A DNA stretch of 36,228 bases from Bacteroidia bacterium (lineage in GTDB: Bacteria > Bacteroidota > Bacteroidia > B-17B0 > Aurantibacillaceae): the NCBI GenBank assembly GCA_025362575.1, contig JANYIQ010000135.1:1-36228 (forward strand), given 5' to 3'. Position numbers and translations under genes: made by a program. Below, in pieces: positions 3-9,415 of this stretch (position 1 is its first letter; each line of letters opens with the position of its first letter). The notes beneath the pieces are model-generated. The model searched no databases and was not told where the DNA came from. It saw nothing but the letters and a program-made list of their open reading frames with translations.

Positions 3-716
3 TTGAGAGATCCTGATGAAGATATTGGTGAAGCAATGAATCTTTTATACAACATTCCGCCCTTGCCAATGCCTTACGCGAGTTATACATGGGGCGATGA
101 TGGGAATCCCGTAAAACCAAAAACACTTTTTATTGGCGACAGTTATTTCTGGAATATTTATTATCAGGGATTAAGCAATAATATTTTTACAGATTGTAAA
201 TTCTGGTATTACGATCAAACTGTTTTTCCTGAAAACGAGCCGGAACGGGAGGTAAAAAAACTTAACTTACTGGAAGAGATCCGGAAAAATCAGGTCATAG
301 TTTTAATGGCAACCGAAAACAATGTTCACGATATTGGTTGGGGCTTTATTGAGGAGGCTCATTCCATTTTTAAGAATAAAATTAAAAACGTAGCGCGCCG
401 CAAAATGTACTTACATGAACTGAAAGAAAGCATTCTTAAATCGGAAGGCTGGATGAAAGACATTGAGAAAAAAGCAAAAGAAAAAAACATAAGTGTCGAA
501 GAAATGATAAACCTTGACGCTCAATACATATATGAAACAGATTACTGCAAGCCCGAAGTTATTGAAGCCACGGAAGAAATAAAGATCCGAATTCATAATA
601 CACCTAAATGGATCGAAGACATTCACAAAAAAGCGAAAGAAAAGAACATAAGCTTTGATGAAATGCTTGAGCTTGATGCGAAATATATTTACGACAGCGA
701 AAAATCTAAAAAGTGA
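3..716 (+). CDS. AlgX/AlgJ-like SGNH-fold protein, C-terminal part (5' end outside window)
   Basis: The reading frame is open at the window edge. The first in-frame start-like codon is only a TTG at base 3, so this is the C-terminal 237 residues of a longer protein. It aligns by eye with the next gene: PDEDIGEAMNLL, then IGDSYFW (residues 44-50, the likely nucleophile-serine block of an AlgX/AlgJ-type SGNH domain), KFWYYD and VLMATENN. After the hydrolase-like part come two copies of a ~38-residue repeat (about 140-177 and 193-230) with the pattern W-x3-I-x2-KAK-x-KNIS-x3-M-x2-LDA-x-Y. Family members take part in O-acetylation of exported polysaccharides, usually beside an MBOAT acyltransferase; whether one lies upstream cannot be seen. 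The stop overlaps the GTG start of the next gene, so the pair is probably translationally coupled. The function is inferred from the fold family only. Confidence 0.72.
   Translation: MRDPDEDIGEAMNLLYNIPPLPMPYASYTWGDDGNPVKPKTLFIGDSYFWNIYYQGLSNNIFTDCKFWYYDQTVFPENEPEREVKKLNLLEEIRKNQVIVLMATENNVHDIGWGFIEEAHSIFKNKIKNVARRKMYLHELKESILKSEGWMKDIEKKAKEKNISVEEMINLDAQYIYETDYCKPEVIEATEEIKIRIHNTPKWIEDIHKKAKEKNISFDEMLELDAKYIYDSEKSKK
420..692 (+). repeat. Two coding copies of a ~38-residue W...KAK..IS..M..DA repeat
   Basis: The copies lie at about 420-533 and 579-692 within the first gene. Both carry a tryptophan, a KKAKEKNIS core and an (I/L)xLDAxY ending. They match three copies in the next gene. The module looks helical and lies outside the SGNH-like domain. 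I do not recognise it as a named domain. Confidence 0.7.
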
Positions 717-2362
717 AGCTGAACTTAAATGAAATAAACATTCCTCTTATTTTTAAACGTTTATGTTTAAGCGGGGTCCTTTGCGTTTTTATTCTGTTAC
801 TGCTTCAACAAGTAACAAATAGGGTAAAATTAAAACCACTTAAAGGATACTTTATCCAAAAAAAGTGCTCAGATATTTCGGCTGCAGGTTGGTTTTCCGG
901 CGACTATCAAAGCGGAACAGAAGCTTTTTTAAATGAGGGTTTTGGCTTTAGAAATTTTCTAGTGAGGCTGGATAATGAAATACGATTCCTGCTTTTCAAA
1001 AAAACAAATACGGAATCAGTTATCATCGGAAAAGAAAATTTCTTGTACGAACATTGCTATTTGCTTGCATACAACGGCAAAGACTTTGTGGGCGAAAATG
1101 CGATAAATGATACAGTTGCAAAAATTAAATTCCTTCAAGACACACTTAATAGTTTAGGCAAAAAATTGCTTATTGTAATTGCTCCAAGTAAAGCTAGAAT
1201 TTATCCGGAATATATTTCTGATTCCTTGAATTCAGGCCCTGAACACGCCACTAATTATATGTTCTATAAAAAATACTTTAATGCTGCCGGTGTTAATTAC
1301 ATTGATTTTAATGCAATTTTTCAAAATAAAAAGTCAGACTCTCCATATTTATTGTTTCCGCAATTAGGAATACACTGGAGTAGGCTTGAGGCCGTAAACG
1401 CCATAGATACGATCATAAAACGCCTGGGGGATCTTTCTGGCGCTCACCTGCCCGAAATAGTGATAAGATCGGTTAAAGAAAAAAGAGAGCTCGAAGAGCC
1501 CGATGATGATATTGTGAACAGCATGAATCTTTTATTTTTACCTCAATTTAAAAAAATGGGTTACCCTGAATTTGAAATAAATAAAACAAATAAAAATCTT
1601 AAAAACCTTATGATGGTTGCCGATAGTTACTGGTGGGATGTTTTTTTGCGACAAATTCCTAAAAACATTTTTGCCGATAACGAATTCTGGTATTATAACA
1701 AAGAAATTTGGGGGAATGGATTCATGGGGAAACTGAATGCAGATTCTGTAGACATGAAAAGGCGTATTTTACAAAAAGACTACATTGTTATCATGGCAAC
1801 TGAAAGTAATTTGTATCGCCTTGGTTATGGATTTATTGGGCAGGCCATATCGGCTCTAAAAAACCCCATTTCTCCTACGCAAAAAGAATTAATTGATATT
1901 AAAAACAACATTCAAAATAATAAGAACTGGTTGGGTCAGATAATTGAAAAGGCGAAAGCTAAAAACATCAGCATCGAAGAAATGATGGACCTTGATGCGA
2001 ATTGGTACTTTCAATTTCACGGGCCCATTTTACAAGACCTTACTTTGTCAGACTATAAACAATTAGTTTATTCTTCAAAAAACTGGATTGACGAAGTGAC
2101 AATAAAAGCAGAGGAAAAGAAAATAAGTCTAGATTCTGCAGTTACCATGGACGCCCGATGGAAGATGAACCAGGATCTAAATAACAGTGCTTTTAACCAA
2201 CCTACAGTACAATCCATTGAAAAGGTCAAAGAAAGCATCCTTCATAACTACGAATGGATGGAACAGATCCGAGAAAAGGCTAAAAAAAGAGGTATCTCGG
2301 TTGACTCTATGATAAGTATTGACGCGCAATGGTTCATAGAACATCAAAAAGCCAAAAACTAA
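713..2362 (+). CDS. AlgX/AlgJ-like SGNH-fold protein with three C-terminal repeats
   Basis: This is a 549-residue paralogue of the preceding gene, starting at a GTG inside the GTGA overlap with its stop. A membrane anchor or uncleaved signal lies at about residues 14-32. Residues ~100-390 resemble the AlgX/AlgJ SGNH hydrolase-like domain used in polysaccharide O-acetylation in the periplasm. The histidine block is GIHWSRLEAVNA (His221) and the serine block VADSYWWD (Ser305). The histidine block normally reads D-x-H, but here Gly219 stands where the triad aspartate is expected, so catalysis is uncertain. The C-terminus has three copies of the repeat seen in the gene upstream (about 396-433, 448-485, 505-542). 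The neighbour pair suggests two co-acting acetyltransferase-type accessory proteins; the polymer acted on is unknown. Confidence 0.75.
   Translation: MKLNLNEINIPLIFKRLCLSGVLCVFILLLLQQVTNRVKLKPLKGYFIQKKCSDISAAGWFSGDYQSGTEAFLNEGFGFRNFLVRLDNEIRFLLFKKTNTESVIIGKENFLYEHCYLLAYNGKDFVGENAINDTVAKIKFLQDTLNSLGKKLLIVIAPSKARIYPEYISDSLNSGPEHATNYMFYKKYFNAAGVNYIDFNAIFQNKKSDSPYLLFPQLGIHWSRLEAVNAIDTIIKRLGDLSGAHLPEIVIRSVKEKRELEEPDDDIVNSMNLLFLPQFKKMGYPEFEINKTNKNLKNLMMVADSYWWDVFLRQIPKNIFADNEFWYYNKEIWGNGFMGKLNADSVDMKRRILQKDYIVIMATESNLYRLGYGFIGQAISALKNPISPTQKELIDIKNNIQNNKNWLGQIIEKAKAKNISIEEMMDLDANWYFQFHGPILQDLTLSDYKQLVYSSKNWIDEVTIKAEEKKISLDSAVTMDARWKMNQDLNNSAFNQPTVQSIEKVKESILHNYEWMEQIREKAKKRGISVDSMISIDAQWFIEHQKAKN
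1898..2338 (+). repeat. Three coding copies of the same ~38-residue repeat
   Basis: The copies lie at about 1898-2011, 2054-2167 and 2225-2338 in the second gene, spaced 52 and 57 residues apart. The first and third keep the full pattern (W, KAK, IS, M, DA, W). The middle one is diverged: KAEEKKIS, with alanine where the methionine sits, but still MDARW. Linkers between copies are not conserved, so the repeat unit itself appears to be under selection. Confidence 0.7.
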
Positions 2363-2454: not shown

Positions 2455-4404
2455 ATGGAATTTGTTAAAGGTTCGGGGGTTATACCCGGCGAATTACTTG
2501 CTAAAATCAACTCTCCCGCCGACCTCAAAAATTTGCGTGAAGACCAGCTTGAACAGTTTTGCAAAGAACTCCGTCAATTCATTATCGATATTGTTTCCGT
2601 TAAAGGCGGGCACTTCGGCGCATCGCTCGGCGTGGTTGAATTAACCACCGCCATTCATTATATTTTTAATACGCCTTACGATCAATTGGTTTGGGATGTT
2701 GGTCATCAGGCATACGGACATAAGATCATTACCGGTCGGCGCGATGAATTTCACACCAACCGTGTCTATAAAGGCATCAGCGGTTTTCCGAAACGCAGCG
2801 AAAGCGAATACGATTCCTTTGGTGTTGGACACTCCTCTACCTCTATTGGTGCTGCGCTTGGAATGGCAGTTGCATCCAAATACAACAACTTAAAAGATAA
2901 ACATCATATTGCTGTTATTGGCGATGGCGCCATGACCGCGGGAATGGCCTTTGAAGCGCTTAATCACGCCGGAGTTGAAAATGCAAATTTGTTAGTGGTG
3001 CTGAATGATAATTGCATGAGCATCGACCCTAACGTTGGTGCCTTAAAAGAATATTTAACGGATATAACGGTCTCTCCTACCTACAACAAAGTAAAAGATG
3101 AGGTTTGGAAATTACTTGGTAAAATAAGTAAGTTCGGACCAAACGCACAGGAGATCGCCAGTAAAATGGAGAACGCGATTAAAACCAGTTTACTCAAACA
3201 AAGTAATTTATTTGAGTCGCTTAAGTTTAGATATTTTGGTCCCGTTGACGGGCACGATGTTGTTCGTTTAACAAAAGTATTGCATGATCTTAAAGATATT
3301 CCGGGGCCGAAATTATTGCATATTCTAACTCAAAAAGGAAAAGGCTATCAATTCTCGGAAGAAGGAAATCCAACGGTGTGGCACTCTCCTGGACTTTTCA
3401 ATAAAGATACGGGCGAGATCATTAAAGTTGTTCCTAAAGAACCTCAACCTCCAAAATATCAAGATGTTTTTGGGCACACCATTGTTGAGCTTGCAGAAAA
3501 AAATAAAAAAATAATGGGCATCACACCGGCCATGCCCTCGGGTTGTTCTTTAAATATTATGATGAAAGCAATGCCCGATCGTGCATTCGATGTTGGTATT
3601 GCCGAACAGCATGCTGTTACATTTAGTGCAGGATTAGCTACGCAAGGTTTGGTTCCTTTCTGTAATATTTATTCATCTTTCATGCAACGCGCGTATGATC
3701 AGGTAGTGCATGATGTAGCTTTACAGAATTTAAAAGTGGTGTTCTGTTTAGATCGCGGCGGATTAGCCGGGGCCGACGGACCAACGCATCACGGAGCTTT
3801 TGATATTTCTTATTTTCGCTGCATACCAAATATGATCGTGAGTGCGCCAATGAACGAAGAAGAGCTTCGTAATTTAATGTACACTGCACAATTGGATGAA
3901 ATAAAAAGTCCGTTCAGCATCCGTTATCCACGCGGAAATGGTGTAATGGTAAACTGGAAAACACCTTTTGCTAAACTGGAAATTGGAAAAGGAAGAAAAA
4001 TAAAAGACGGTAAAGAAATTGCCATTCTTTCTTTAGGTCACCCCGGAAACCTTGTTGCCAAAGCGCTTGAGCAATTAGAAGAACAAGGCATTCATGCAGC
4101 GCACTACGACATGCGTTTTGCAAAACCGATAGATGAACAATTATTACACGAAGTTTTTTCGCGGTATAAAAAAATAATCACGGTTGAAGACGGAAGCATT
4201 ATTGGTGGAATTGGTTCAGCCGTTTTAGAATTCATGGCCGATAATAATTACAGCGCTCAGGTAAAACGTTTGGGCATTCCTGATAATTTTATTGAGCATG
4301 GCGAACAAAATGAATTGTATGAAGAGTGTGGTTTTTCACCAAAACAAATTTATCAAACGGCCTTTGATCTTTTAAAAGAGAAAAAAGATTCGATGGTTTC
4401 TTAA
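2455..4404 (+). CDS. dxs: 1-deoxy-D-xylulose-5-phosphate synthase
   Basis: Dxs condenses pyruvate and glyceraldehyde 3-phosphate with thiamine diphosphate to give DXP, the first committed step of the MEP isoprenoid pathway in the cytoplasm. At 649 residues it is of usual family length. Visible hallmarks are the GGHF histidine near residue 53, the TPP/Mg motif GDGAMTAG (156-163) to NDN (184-186), the catalytic glutamate in GIAEQHAV (Glu384), the transketolase pyrimidine domain with RAYDQVVHD, and a C-terminal transketolase domain. The ATG at 2455 is the only plausible start, because there is no internal Met, GTG or TTG before the conserved INSPADLK segment. It sits almost on top of the -7 promoter element. 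The 3' end overlaps the convergent hydrolase gene by 4 bp. It feeds the same C55 lipid route as uppS and uppP further along. Confidence 0.97.
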   Translation: MEFVKGSGVIPGELLAKINSPADLKNLREDQLEQFCKELRQFIIDIVSVKGGHFGASLGVVELTTAIHYIFNTPYDQLVWDVGHQAYGHKIITGRRDEFHTNRVYKGISGFPKRSESEYDSFGVGHSSTSIGAALGMAVASKYNNLKDKHHIAVIGDGAMTAGMAFEALNHAGVENANLLVVLNDNCMSIDPNVGALKEYLTDITVSPTYNKVKDEVWKLLGKISKFGPNAQEIASKMENAIKTSLLKQSNLFESLKFRYFGPVDGHDVVRLTKVLHDLKDIPGPKLLHILTQKGKGYQFSEEGNPTVWHSPGLFNKDTGEIIKVVPKEPQPPKYQDVFGHTIVELAEKNKKIMGITPAMPSGCSLNIMMKAMPDRAFDVGIAEQHAVTFSAGLATQGLVPFCNIYSSFMQRAYDQVVHDVALQNLKVVFCLDRGGLAGADGPTHHGAFDISYFRCIPNMIVSAPMNEEELRNLMYTAQLDEIKSPFSIRYPRGNGVMVNWKTPFAKLEIGKGRKIKDGKEIAILSLGHPGNLVAKALEQLEEQGIHAAHYDMRFAKPIDEQLLHEVFSRYKKIITVEDGSIIGGIGSAVLEFMADNNYSAQVKRLGIPDNFIEHGEQNELYEECGFSPKQIYQTAFDLLKEKKDSMVS

Positions 4405-5039
4405 ACCAAAAAAGGATTATTCATTTTCTCAAACCCTATCGTTGTAGCTTGCCCGTGACCGCTATATACTTTCACATCATCTCCCAAAGGAAATAATTTT
4501 TGTTCTATGGAATCGATAAGGGTCTGGTGATCGCCGCCGGGAAGGTCAGTACGGCCAATGCTTCCGTAAAATAAAACATCGCCGGCGATCATGAATTTTT
4601 GTTCTTTGGAGTAGAATGTCAAGCTGCCGGGAGAATGTCCGGGAGTAAAGATCATTTCCATTTCGCTGTTTCCAAATTTCAATTTTTCTCCTTCTTTTAA
4701 AAAAACTTCCGGCAAAGGCGATTCTTCACAAGGTAAATTATACATCATTGCCACATCCTTATGTTTTTGAATATAACCAAGATCATTTTTGTGAACTTCC
4801 GGCAATAATTTCCAGGTATCAAAAACAAATCGGTTTCCCGAAATATGATCGATGTGTGCGTGCGTTAAGATGAGTCGTTTTAAATTAAGTTCTTTTGCTT
4901 CAATGAATTTTTTCAACTGTGTGTGTTCAGATGAACTCGAGTTTCCCGGATCAATAATTATGGCCTCTTTGGTTTCATCCCATAAAACATAGGTGTTTTC
5001 CTGAAAAAGTCCGAAACAAAAAGAATGCAGCTGGATCAT
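4401..5039 (-). CDS. Metallo-beta-lactamase-fold hydrolase (glyoxalase II-like)
   Basis: This 212-residue protein of the MBL superfamily has the metal motif THAHIDH (His60, His62, Asp64, His65), an FTPGHSPGSL histidine, the bridging aspartate in AGDVLFYGSIGR, and a late GHGQAT histidine, so a complete binuclear zinc/iron site is predicted. It resembles the short glyoxalase II-like group that hydrolyses thioesters such as S-lactoylglutathione analogues; the true substrate cannot be told from sequence. A TTG four codons upstream (5051) is possible, but the ATG at 5039 matches the usual MIQLHSF-type beginning and is preferred. It is cytoplasmic, with no signal peptide. It is convergent with dxs, overlapping it by 4 bp, and has no obvious operon partner. 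Confidence 0.88.
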   Translation of the reverse strand: MIQLHSFCFGLFQENTYVLWDETKEAIIIDPGNSSSSEHTQLKKFIEAKELNLKRLILTHAHIDHISGNRFVFDTWKLLPEVHKNDLGYIQKHKDVAMMYNLPCEESPLPEVFLKEGEKLKFGNSEMEMIFTPGHSPGSLTFYSKEQKFMIAGDVLFYGSIGRTDLPGGDHQTLIDSIEQKLFPLGDDVKVYSGHGQATTIGFEKMNNPFLV

Positions 5040-5109
5040 GTTTTTGCACAAATATCCGTTGTTTAATCGAATTTTGAACGAAGGCTTAGATTATTTTTAA
5101 CATAATTAC

Positions 5110-5137
5110 TTGATTTTCAATGTTTTATTTATCTTTA
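5110..5137 (+). promoter_or_regulatory. Candidate promoter for the porG-like gene
   Basis: TTG at 5110-5112 (-33-like) and TATCTTTA at 5130-5137 (one base from the TAnnTTTG consensus) are separated by 17 bp. This leaves a leader of roughly 40 bases before the TTG start at 5184. The remaining part of the 5040-5183 gap holds nothing else I can name. Confidence 0.4.
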
Positions 5138-5183
5138 AGCCAAAAAATCGTAATAAATTCGCCATCTTTACGTTACTATTGTC

Positions 5184-6002
5184 TTGAAACGCCCACTCCT
5201 CATACTAATTTGTCTGCTTATCATTTTCCAGGTACAGGCGCAAACCCGCAAGCGGAATTTCCGACAGCACGAGATTGGCTTGTTTCTTGGAGGAGCTTAC
5301 TATATTGGGGATCTAAACCCAAGTCGCCAGTTCTTTTTGTCGCAGCCCGCTATTGGTTTATTTTATCGTTTTACTCCTAATTACCGTTATGCTTTCCGGA
5401 CAGGCTTAAATTTTGGAAGCATACAGGGCGATGACTCACAGAGTACTGATGCCGACCAGAGACAACGTAATCTTAATTTTAAATCGCAAATACAGGAATT
5501 GTATGTTATTTCTGAGTTCAATTTTTTAGAATATCGTATCAGCAATGACAAGTACAAATTCAGCATGTTCTTATTCGCCGGCATCAGCGGATTTCATTTT
5601 AACCCGCAGGGAAATTTAGGAGGGGGTCATTGGGAAGATCTACGGCCACTAAGGACAGAGGGGCAGACAAAAAAATACAAAGTATGGCAGGTTAGTGTTC
5701 CTTTTGGTTTAGGATTTAAAATTAATGTCTCGAAAAGCATTGGCATTGGTTTAGAATGGGGTCCCCGTAAAACATGGACAGACTATTTAGATGATGTGAG
5801 CGGCACCTATCCTGATCCAAATGTAAACCCCGCGAATGGCCCTGCCGGAGCCTTATTTTCGAATCGTTCCCGCAATGCCGGCGATGTTATCAATACTCAA
5901 AGAGGTAACCCCCGTACAAAAGACTGGTACATTTTTTATGGACTAACGCTTAACATAAAACTGCGTTCCCCGAAAGAGCCATGCTATTCAATAGGCATGT
6001 GA
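5184..6002 (+). CDS. porG: PorG-like outer-membrane protein (DUF6089 family)
   Basis: This is a 272-residue protein with a clear Sec signal peptide (hydrophobic residues ~4-15, cleavage after VQAQ) and alternating aromatic/hydrophobic strands typical of an 8-stranded beta-barrel. The GLFLGGAYYIGDLNP start of the mature protein and its position directly upstream of uppS-bamA are characteristic of the DUF6089/PorG family. PorG is an outer-membrane part of the type IX secretion system in Porphyromonas. The start codon is a TTG at 5184, and it begins the signal peptide cleanly. The family assignment is firm; the T9SS role here is inferred and is supported by a PorZ-like gene at 26.8-29.1 kb. It is followed by a 119-bp gap before uppS. 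Confidence 0.78.
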   Translation: MKRPLLILICLLIIFQVQAQTRKRNFRQHEIGLFLGGAYYIGDLNPSRQFFLSQPAIGLFYRFTPNYRYAFRTGLNFGSIQGDDSQSTDADQRQRNLNFKSQIQELYVISEFNFLEYRISNDKYKFSMFLFAGISGFHFNPQGNLGGGHWEDLRPLRTEGQTKKYKVWQVSVPFGLGFKINVSKSIGIGLEWGPRKTWTDYLDDVSGTYPDPNVNPANGPAGALFSNRSRNAGDVINTQRGNPRTKDWYIFYGLTLNIKLRSPKEPCYSIGM

Positions 6003-6121
6003 TCCTCACACAACATACTGAATTCATAAAAATTATTAAAAAGCCCCAAACCGCCCCAAAAGTCCGATTTTATTAAGGTTTTCGCCGTATTTTTACTAAA
6101 TTCGCAATCCTTAAAACGGTT

Positions 6122-6871
6122 ATGAACACGGCTGAAAAAATAAATAAACTGAATATACCAAAACACATTGCCATCATCATGGATGGAAATGGCAGATGGG
6201 CAAAACAACAAGGTGAAGACCGGATCTTTGGTCATCACGAAGGAGTGAACTCTGTTCGCGAAATTGTTGAAGCTGCCGTTGAAGTTGGTGTTAAGTATTT
6301 AACCATTTACGCCTTTAGTACCGAGAACTGGAACCGACCAAAAGAGGAAGTAGATGCATTGATGGAATTACTGGTTGCAACAATAAGCATTGAGGCACCA
6401 CAATTAAATAAGAACGGCGTGAAGCTAGAAGCCATTGGCAATTTGAAAAGTTTACCTCCGGCCTGTTATGAAGAATTACAGGAAGCCATGAAACTGACTG
6501 AAAAAAATACAAAATTGACATTAGTACTGGCCCTTAGTTATTCAGCTAAATGGGAAATTACTACTGCCATGAAAGAAATTGCAGAGAAAGTGGAGAAAGG
6601 AACCTTGGCCGCAAAAGACATCAGCGAAGACTTAATTGCTTCACATTTATGTACAAAAAACTATCCTGATCCTGAGTTAATGATACGCACCAGCGGAGAA
6701 CACCGCATCAGTAATTTTTTATTATGGCAACTGGCTTACGCCGAATTTTATTTTACAGATAAGCTTTGGCCTGATTTCAGAAAAAATGATTTTTACGAAG
6801 CAATAATTGGCTACCAAAACCGCGAACGCCGTTTCGGAAAAACAAGCGAACAAATAGCCAAACAAAGCTAA
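6122..6871 (+). CDS. uppS: Undecaprenyl-diphosphate synthase (cis-prenyltransferase)
   Basis: This 249-residue cytosolic or membrane-associated enzyme adds eight isopentenyl units to farnesyl-PP in cis configuration, giving C55-PP, the precursor of the lipid carrier for peptidoglycan and surface glycans. The signature HIAIIMDGNGRWA carries the catalytic Asp21. The FSTENWNRP block (65-73) and the C-terminal RTSGEHRISNFLLWQ block are intact. It starts at the ATG at 6122. Its stop directly abuts the bamA start (TAA-ATG, no gap), so the two are co-transcribed. The product pool connects to UppP (18.0-18.8 kb) and the WecA-like enzyme (23.4-24.5 kb). Confidence 0.96.
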   Translation: MNTAEKINKLNIPKHIAIIMDGNGRWAKQQGEDRIFGHHEGVNSVREIVEAAVEVGVKYLTIYAFSTENWNRPKEEVDALMELLVATISIEAPQLNKNGVKLEAIGNLKSLPPACYEELQEAMKLTEKNTKLTLVLALSYSAKWEITTAMKEIAEKVEKGTLAAKDISEDLIASHLCTKNYPDPELMIRTSGEHRISNFLLWQLAYAEFYFTDKLWPDFRKNDFYEAIIGYQNRERRFGKTSEQIAKQS

Positions 6872-9415
6872 ATGAAATTTAAACTCCTTCACATATTCCT
6901 TTTGTTCATTGCTGTGCAAACTTTTGCGCAGGTTGACTCGGCGCAGATTATGGATTATGCCAAGCCTAAAGAATACATCATTGGAGGCATTGAAGTCAGC
7001 GGTGCTGAATTCACCGACAAGAACGTAGTTCGTTTATTGTCAGGTTTAATTGTTGGAGATAAACTTCAGGTGCCCGGAGATAAAACTACTGATGCCATTC
7101 GCGCCCTTTGGAAACAAGGTTTGTTTGAAGACGTAAAGATATTCCAGGAAAAAATTATCGGCAACGAAATATTCATTCGTATTGATGTTACAGAGCGTCC
7201 GCGTTTATCGAAATTTTCTTTCAAGGGCCGCGTTAAAAAGAATGAAGCTGATGATATCCGTAACAAGATCCGTTTGATCCGTGAAAAAGTAGTAACTGAT
7301 TACACGATAGGATTCATTAAGAATACCGTGAAGGATTATTATGTGAGTAAAGGTTTTTATAACGCTGTTGTTGAGATCACTCAGGAAAAAGATCGTCTTG
7401 CAAAAACACCTCACATCATTTTAACGATCAATGTTGATAAAGGAAAAAAAGTAAGGATCAAGAATTTCATCATTCATGGTAACACGGTTGTAGCCAAATG
7501 GAAGTTGATGCGTAAGATAAAAGACAGCAAACCTTTCCGTGCTTACAATCCATTTAACTCGGGCAAATATCTTGAAGAGAACGTTGCTCACGACTTACCT
7601 TCCATCATTGAAAAATACAACAGTAAAGGTTACCGTGATGCGCGTATCGTAAAAGATACCGCCTACTTTGTAAGTAAAAAGCGTGTTAACATCGAAGTGT
7701 TCTTAGAGGAAGGTCACAAATTCTACTTCGGAACATTCAAATGGTTTGGCAACAGCAAATACCGCAGCGGACAATTGGATACGATCTTGAACATTAAGAA
7801 AGGTGACATTTTTGATCAAAGTCATCTCGAACAAAAATTACAAATGAATCCTAATGGGATTGACGTTTCTTCTTTATACATGGATGATGGTTATTTATTC
7901 TTTCAGATCAATCCGCAGGAAAGCAACATTCATAACGACACGATTGATTTTGATATTCACCTCTACGAAGGTAAACAAGCCACCATTAACAAAGTTACCG
8001 TTAAAGGAAATGACAAAACGAACGATCACGTTATCTATCGTGAGATCCGTACGCGACCGGGACAACTATTTCGCCGTTCTGACATCATGCGTACACAGCG
8101 TCAGTTAGCGCAGCTTGGATATTTTGATGCAGAGAAATTAAATGTGGTTCCTACTCCAAATCCTGCAGAAGGAACCGTGGATATTGAATACACGGTTGAA
8201 GAAAAACCAAGCGATCAGATCCAGTTATCAGGTGGTTGGGGCGGTGGCCGTATTATCGGAACACTGGGTGTTACATTTAATAATTTTTCTACGCGCAACT
8301 TCTTTAAACGCGAAGCATGGCGACCATTACCTACCGGCGACGGACAGCGCTTAAGTGTTCAGGCACAAACTAACGGTCTGTATTACCAGTCATACAACAT
8401 TTCATTTACCGAACCATGGATGGGCGGCAAAAAACCAAACTCATTAACACTATCTGCATTTCACTCTTCTTTTTCTAACGGAGTAAAAAAGAAGATCACT
8501 ACCGATGGAGTAAAGGCGGCAAATCCATTAGCCTATTACATGAACATCACAGGTGGTTCCGTTGGTTTTGGAAGAAGCTTGAAATGGCCTGATGATTATT
8601 TTTCAATGTACTCCAGTTTAAATTATAACTATTATGAATTGTGGCAGTATCCTTCCTTCATTTTTGGAACAGGTTATGCTAACGATGTTAACTTAGGTCT
8701 GAATATTTCCAGAAACTCGGTAGATGCACCTATCTTCCCTAAAAACGGTTCTAACATCACCTTCCACGGTCAGTGGACTCCACCCTACTCATCTTTCAAT
8801 CATAAAAATTATACCGATCTGAAAGCAAGTGAGCGTTATAAATTTATTGAATATCAAAAATACAAATTCACCGCCGAATGGTTCACTCAGTTAACCAATA
8901 AGCGCGCAGAAGAAGGGAAAGACGTTCGTAATTTAGTACTGAGAACAAAAGTCGGTTTTGGTTTCTTAACCTATTATAATAAAGATGTAGGTATTTCTCC
9001 TTTCGAGCGTTTTTACTTGGGAGGAAGCGGATTAAGCGGATATCAGAATTTTGTGGCCAGAGAAATTATTGCTTTGAGAGGTTATCCTGACAACTCTTTA
9101 TCAGGCGGACAAGGTGATCCGATCGTGAGTCGTTACACCATGGAGTTGCGTTATCCTGTTACTTTGAATCCGCAAGCCACCATATTTGTTTTAGGTTTTG
9201 CTGAGGCAGGAAATTCATGGGCCTCTTACAAATATTACAATCCCTTTCAGGTGAAGCGAAGTGCAGGCTTTGGTTTAAGGGTATTTTTACCAATGTTTGG
9301 TTTATTGGGTATAGATTACGGATGGGGCTTTGATAATGTTCCGGGAAGCCCCGGTATTGGAAACGGCAAGGGTCAGTTTCACTTTACCATTGGCGGAACG
9401 CTTGGAGAATTATAA
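6872..9415 (+). CDS. bamA: Outer-membrane protein assembly factor BamA
   Basis: This 847-residue Omp85-family protein begins with a signal peptide (cleavage near FAQVDS). Several POTRA domains follow (about residues 35-450), then a 16-strand barrel. The conserved loop-6 motif appears as LRGYPDN (735-741), the Bacteroidota equivalent of VRGF/Y. BamA inserts and folds beta-barrel proteins into the outer membrane and is essential. Its client-chaperone partners, the Skp/OmpH proteins, follow immediately downstream. One detail: the protein does not end with the usual terminal aromatic residue but extends a few residues to GGTLGEL. It is immediately adjacent to uppS. Confidence 0.95.
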   Translation: MKFKLLHIFLLFIAVQTFAQVDSAQIMDYAKPKEYIIGGIEVSGAEFTDKNVVRLLSGLIVGDKLQVPGDKTTDAIRALWKQGLFEDVKIFQEKIIGNEIFIRIDVTERPRLSKFSFKGRVKKNEADDIRNKIRLIREKVVTDYTIGFIKNTVKDYYVSKGFYNAVVEITQEKDRLAKTPHIILTINVDKGKKVRIKNFIIHGNTVVAKWKLMRKIKDSKPFRAYNPFNSGKYLEENVAHDLPSIIEKYNSKGYRDARIVKDTAYFVSKKRVNIEVFLEEGHKFYFGTFKWFGNSKYRSGQLDTILNIKKGDIFDQSHLEQKLQMNPNGIDVSSLYMDDGYLFFQINPQESNIHNDTIDFDIHLYEGKQATINKVTVKGNDKTNDHVIYREIRTRPGQLFRRSDIMRTQRQLAQLGYFDAEKLNVVPTPNPAEGTVDIEYTVEEKPSDQIQLSGGWGGGRIIGTLGVTFNNFSTRNFFKREAWRPLPTGDGQRLSVQAQTNGLYYQSYNISFTEPWMGGKKPNSLTLSAFHSSFSNGVKKKITTDGVKAANPLAYYMNITGGSVGFGRSLKWPDDYFSMYSSLNYNYYELWQYPSFIFGTGYANDVNLGLNISRNSVDAPIFPKNGSNITFHGQWTPPYSSFNHKNYTDLKASERYKFIEYQKYKFTAEWFTQLTNKRAEEGKDVRNLVLRTKVGFGFLTYYNKDVGISPFERFYLGGSGLSGYQNFVAREIIALRGYPDNSLSGGQGDPIVSRYTMELRYPVTLNPQATIFVLGFAEAGNSWASYKYYNPFQVKRSAGFGLRVFLPMFGLLGIDYGWGFDNVPGSPGIGNGKGQFHFTIGGTLGEL

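Follow-up and report, generated by a model that had tools for sequence, protein, structure and literature searches.

The window, that is, the whole stretch of 36,228 nucleotides that was analysed, is contig C22 of a Bacteroidia genome of 4.3 Mb in 327 contigs. It opens with two adjacent genes, AlgJ1 and AlgJ2 (Table 1), and the GTG start codon of the second overlaps the stop codon of the first (GTGA). Another contig of the same genome, C109, ends in an incomplete AlgJ-like gene that encodes 242 N-terminal residues (PF16822, E 4.6e-15), and this piece is most likely the missing N-terminus of AlgJ1 (~242 residues). In related genomes, the AlgJ1 gene is found whole at the equivalent place, encoding 488-502 aa, and the gene order GH16-like, MBOAT, AlgJ, AlgJ runs uninterrupted in four of them (L043-L046; three of the same genus and one of the same family). 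From this synteny, the split between C109 and the window was read as an assembly gap. We also considered whether AlgJ1 and AlgJ2 are simple recent tandem duplicates, and this was rejected because the orthologues of the one and those of the other belong to different clades. The genes that follow in the window (2455-9415) look ordinary by sequence reading: dxs, a metallo-beta-lactamase-fold protein, a uppS-like gene and a BamA-like protein.

Table 1. Coordinates in the window of the two AlgJ-like genes, their motifs and their repeat units.
Feature	Position	Strand	Remark
AlgJ1, C-terminal part of an AlgJ-like SGNH protein	3..716	+	5' end cut by contig start
AlgJ1 unit 1 (three-helix module)	402..539	+	
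AlgJ1 unit 2	567..698	+	
AlgJ2, complete AlgJ-like SGNH protein, 549 aa	713..2362	+	
AlgJ2 N-terminal membrane anchor, residues 12-30	746..802	+	Hydropathy; model helix 11-34
AlgJ2 PF16822 (ALGX) region, residues 103-238	1019..1426	+	Includes GIHW at nt 1367-1378
AlgJ2 D304-S305, (G/A/S)DS nucleophile motif	1622..1627	+	Invariant in alignments A3 and A4
AlgJ2 unit 1	1883..2017	+	
AlgJ2 unit 2	2039..2173	+	
AlgJ2 unit 3	2210..2344	+	

The initial annotation regarded both proteins as AlgX/AlgJ-like members of the SGNH type, and this assignment was borne out. A profile search matched AlgJ2 to PF16822 (ALGX) with E 1.3e-12, and the best PDB match in Foldseek was AlgJ (4o8v, E 1.5e-9, TM to target ~0.6), together with 4knc (E 3.7e-8). 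The system of alginate O-acetylation to which AlgJ and AlgX belong (PF16822; 4o8v, 4knc, 7ula) also shows an SGNH domain, a single N-terminal anchor and an MBOAT neighbour, and in AlgX, as in the proteins described here, the catalytic domain is followed by a further domain, but neither AlgJ nor AlgX has their C-terminal helical units. The N-terminal anchor of AlgJ2 places the remaining protein in the periplasm. The nucleophile motif (G/A/S)DS is kept in 180 of 181 AlgJ-like homologues, the remaining one having DC. The catalytic motif of AlgJ is reported to be DxH (PMC4148444). In the AlgJ-like proteins, by contrast, GxHW stands where AlgJ/AlgX has DxH(W): the glycine is found in 171/181 homologues, and in AlgJ2 it aligns to D190 of AlgJ. 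It suggests that the catalytic Asp has been lost or moved in this SGNH clade, and Asp232 of AlgJ2, which is invariant in the alignment, might substitute for it. As the DxH motif is absent, we term these proteins AlgJ-like and not AlgJ.

On C109, the gene directly before AlgJ1 encodes an MBOAT protein (PF03062, E 2.7e-31), and the same operon holds the gene of a 681-aa GH16-like lipoprotein (L004:2166-4211), both on the strand of AlgJ1. The MBOAT protein ends in FIYFRF, which is the FxYxxF acyl-Tyr shuttle motif, and the Tyr at position -4 is present in 96/96 full-length MBOAT homologues. It has been reported that the C-terminal Tyr of PatA accepts the acetyl group and passes it on to PatB (PMC12148441). 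Taken with this shuttle, the FIYFRF motif argues strongly for acyl transfer by the operon, and very likely the operon O-acylates an envelope glycan. PatA/PatB and DltB/X/D likewise pair an MBOAT protein that has the C-terminal FxYxxF motif with a Ser nucleophile in an SGNH partner; unlike them, the operon described here encodes two SGNH proteins, which bear helical tails, and also a GH16-like lipoprotein. The latter scored E 0.0013 and 18.6 bits against the GH16 profile, below the cut-off of 22, while a homologue in L057 reached 23.3 bits, and sequence reading located the ExDxE catalytic signature of GH16 in it (YSEIDIEIV). The co-occurrence with MBOAT acyltransferases that the initial annotation had envisaged is common, as an MBOAT gene lies within 3 kb upstream of 68 of the 76 AlgJ-like genes.

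Both proteins had been noted to end in tandem units of an unrecognised repeat, and all five copies were recovered, two on AlgJ1 and three on AlgJ2. The length of about 38 residues given for them is right for the core that runs from Trp to Trp, but the full unit has ~46 residues and three helices. It is gapless over 46 positions, and the starts are spaced 52-57 residues apart in the window and mostly 51-59 apart in multi-copy proteins in general. Among 197 copies below 70% identity, the pattern was I(R/K)x(N/D)PxWMxxIxxKAxxxxISxDxMIxLDAx(W/Y), with Ala40 in 191, Trp17 in 180, Lys24 in 162 and Asp39 in 152 of them. A profile made from 66 copies, all taken from non-AlgJ proteins, found the five window copies (E 4.2e-17, 6.7e-17, 2.4e-12, 5e-9 and 5.4e-16) and matched 167/182 AlgJ-like proteins, and it gave zero matches in shuffled tails, which indicates that the repeat is not due to chance. 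It had also been noted that the core is kept and the linkers vary. The linkers do mostly drift more (identity to orthologues 0.28-0.44 for units and 0.08-0.45 for linkers). The whole genome has seven copies of the unit. Besides the five in the window, the sixth belongs to an AlgJ-like protein encoded in a second MBOAT operon (C154), and the seventh is internal to the GH16-like lipoprotein, whose gene lies on C109 in the upstream part of the AlgJ1 operon.

The AlphaFold2 model of AlgJ2, built with 59 sequences, had a mean pLDDT of 90.8, and the tail was predicted as folded helical units and not as the disordered filler that had been named as a refuting outcome. Numbered from residue 2, the helices are 389-401, 403-416 and 420-435 in unit 1, 444-453, 455-467 and 472-494 in unit 2, and 498-509, 512-525 and 529-547 in unit 3. 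The model thus predicts that each unit is a separate three-helix bundle. When modelled alone, the three-unit tail gave a pLDDT of 90.9 and a pTM of 0.49, and we read this low pTM as rigid units on loose linkers. Covariation was observed between positions 24 and 39 (z 9.1; Fisher p 5e-21, a value that ignores the relatedness of the sequences), where K24-D39 is exchanged for Q24-N39, and also for 28-35 (z 6.1) and 8-37 (z 5.6). These pairs agree with the predicted fold of an antiparallel helix pair and a third helix.

No named domain could be assigned to the unit when 62 copies of it were scanned against Pfam, NCBIfam and PHROGs, in agreement with the initial annotation, which could not match the repeat to one. 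The best of the scattered matches had E 0.0018, and none was common to more than four copies. In the PDB, neither a sequence nor a fold relative of the unit was found (best E 0.35 in the tail fold search), and the module was nowhere described in the open-licence literature that was searched. Weak Pfam matches to RsbU_N (0.0097), DUF3886 and CopG were dropped as not reproducible across copies, and sequence matches to designed toroids (dTor) in the PDB were the sum of many sub-threshold repeats and not homology. A local helix-turn-helix likeness to YdbL of E. coli (PDB 28oj; 32 columns, 0.9 A, prob 0.72, E 7.6) and Pfam matches of a few copies to CopG and RHH, the ribbon-helix-helix proteins (E 0.017-0.03), cover part of the module only and are not significant; we take them as analogy or chance. 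Mobile accessory modules such as carbohydrate-binding modules and dockerins are likewise small, terminal, tandem and mobile among the enzymes of one pathway, but they have no sequence match to the unit. The unit is a new module, though of a type already familiar, the mobile accessory domain.

The unit occurs far beyond the two window proteins. Six-frame whole-genome searches found it in 79/87 genomes of the order and in 101/395 genomes of the class, belonging to 54 of 196 genera. The same search in a phylum sample of 296 genomes, which probably consists mainly of lineages that lack the unit, found it in the genome of the window only. The private feature of one genome that this sample suggested was corrected by the order and class samples and by named loci, which include records of Bacteroidales, Prolixibacteraceae, Draconibacterium, Saprospiraceae and Sphingobacteriaceae bins.

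The carriers, identified by Pfam or family search, are diverse. AlgJ-like proteins have one to four C-terminal units and GH16-like lipoproteins an internal one, and the unit is also found on PMT_2 and ArnT-like membrane glycosyltransferases, DUF2079 proteins, GDSL lipases, a Wzy_C/TPR protein, CotH proteins (E 3.6e-55) and several polytopic proteins that gave no match in Pfam. Moreover, there are lipoproteins of 138-143 aa that consist of little beyond the signal, the lipid Cys and two units (L195:6809-7240 and L196:6897-7313). In these two, charged residues follow the lipid Cys (CSSSEEN and CKNEDEN), and such a stretch is possibly the signal by which lipoproteins of Bacteroidota are exported to the surface. 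Polytopic carriers have the unit beyond their last hydrophobic segment, near the C-terminus, a part that is periplasmic in ArnT-type enzymes, in agreement with the anchored and lipidated carriers. Among these, the AlgJ-like proteins possess one N-terminal anchor each, and a lipoprotein signal is present in the GH16-like and small ones. As its carriers are anchored or lipidated, the unit works outside the cytoplasm. The computations show it to be a real, predicted-folded, mobile domain on unrelated envelope-glycan assembly enzymes and on two-unit lipoproteins.

The carrier genes also cluster. Another carrier was present within 10 kb of 30 of the 60 carrier ORFs, against ~0.75 expected, an excess that comes partly from the operon neighbours included in the count, and for 24 of these 30 a carrier of very different length lies in that range. 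In one genome, all six units are on five genes within ~10 kb, with an MBOAT gene among them, and the five encode a lipoprotein, an AlgJ-like protein, a 7-TM protein, a further AlgJ-like protein and a CotH protein. A CotH kinase-like protein with a C-terminal unit (L195:14078-16060) adjoins an MBOAT-AlgJ cluster. An association of multi-unit AlgJ with a GH16-like neighbour (13/15 vs 9/61, p 2.6e-7) was counted from strong matches only (E <1e-30) and failed phylogenetic control, with ~4 independent contrasts; some GH16-like locus labels, such as that of a 635-aa, 6-TM protein of L197, may match through the unit only.

Our preferred though tentative reading, drawn from sequence patterns and still short of an even chance, is that the unit serves as a periplasmic docking module which gathers glycan-modifying enzymes. 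Its occurrence on unrelated folds (SGNH, GH16-like, PMT_2, DUF2079, CotH and GDSL), the stand-alone two-unit lipoproteins and the clustering of carriers fit a docking or binding module. In the operon, MBOAT would load the Tyr in its own C-terminal FIYFRF motif with an acyl group, and the two AlgJ-like SGNH proteins would receive it on the catalytic Ser (Ser305 in AlgJ2) and transfer it to a sugar polymer, which the GH16-like lipoprotein would then trim or rearrange. The flexible unit strings on AlgJ1, AlgJ2 and the GH16-like protein would keep the catalytic domains near each other or close to a common lipoprotein or envelope partner, by analogy with the alginate complex, where the lipoprotein AlgK keeps AlgX in place.

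The main alternative, to which we give a somewhat lower probability, is that the unit binds glycan, holding the polysaccharide or peptidoglycan on which the attached enzyme acts. Tandem copies would then raise avidity, and the two-unit lipoproteins would be glycan-binding proteins. Like carbohydrate-binding modules, the unit is terminal and tandem and sits on acyltransferases, a GH16-like protein and glycosyltransferases, and AlgX has a binding module C-terminal to its SGNH domain. On the other hand, the Pfam, NCBIfam and PHROGs scans gave no match to CBM, LysM, SPOR or similar families, and CotH-type proteins carry the unit too. The conserved positions form the hydrophobic core and the helix caps or belong to the 24-39 pair. 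Trp17 and Trp/Tyr42, which are both conserved, sit on hydrophobic helix faces, the net charge is about zero, and the sequence reveals no evident patch of exposed, conserved residues that are aromatic or charged. As the conserved residues mostly read as fold-forming, no binding site can be named on the unit, and the lack of an evident common glycan site led us to favour docking. Against docking, the fold alone can explain the conserved residues, and modules binding one shared polymer would give the same genome pattern, so that sequence data cannot separate the two.

An inert cap or spacer, which stabilises the C-terminus or extends its reach and has no ligand, seems improbable. Conservation is indeed mostly in the core and helix caps, in the AlgJ-like proteins the units diverge more quickly than the SGNH domain does, and the number of units changes or drops to none in several lineages; yet lipoproteins made of units alone exist, the unit is spread over many unrelated folds, and different carriers cluster. 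A partner-specific clamp, which would hold the SGNH protein on MBOAT so that the acyl-Tyr motif reaches the active site, is quite improbable, for although the MBOAT gene is directly upstream in most loci, all ten AlgJ-like proteins that lack the unit (10/10) keep an adjacent MBOAT, which makes the unit dispensable for this pairing, and the PMT_2, CotH, GDSL and lipoprotein carriers are not MBOAT partners.

The envelope-glycan machinery of Bacteroidia is mostly uncharacterised, and here one widespread module that none of the searched domain databases contains is common to acyltransferases, glycosyltransferases, a GH16-like protein, CotH-type proteins and small lipoproteins. If docking is its function, the unit offers a sequence handle for which of these enzymes work together. 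A wider proposal, to which we give about one chance in a few, is that it provides the periplasm of Bacteroidia with a general docking code, acting by like-with-like contacts or through the two-unit lipoproteins; any enzyme bearing the unit would then join assemblies in which envelope glycans are built, acylated and trimmed.

In the second MBOAT-AlgJ operon of the genome (L005:5700-8425), the single C-terminal unit is degenerate, with Leu in place of the Trp, and it is kept in that form across related genomes.
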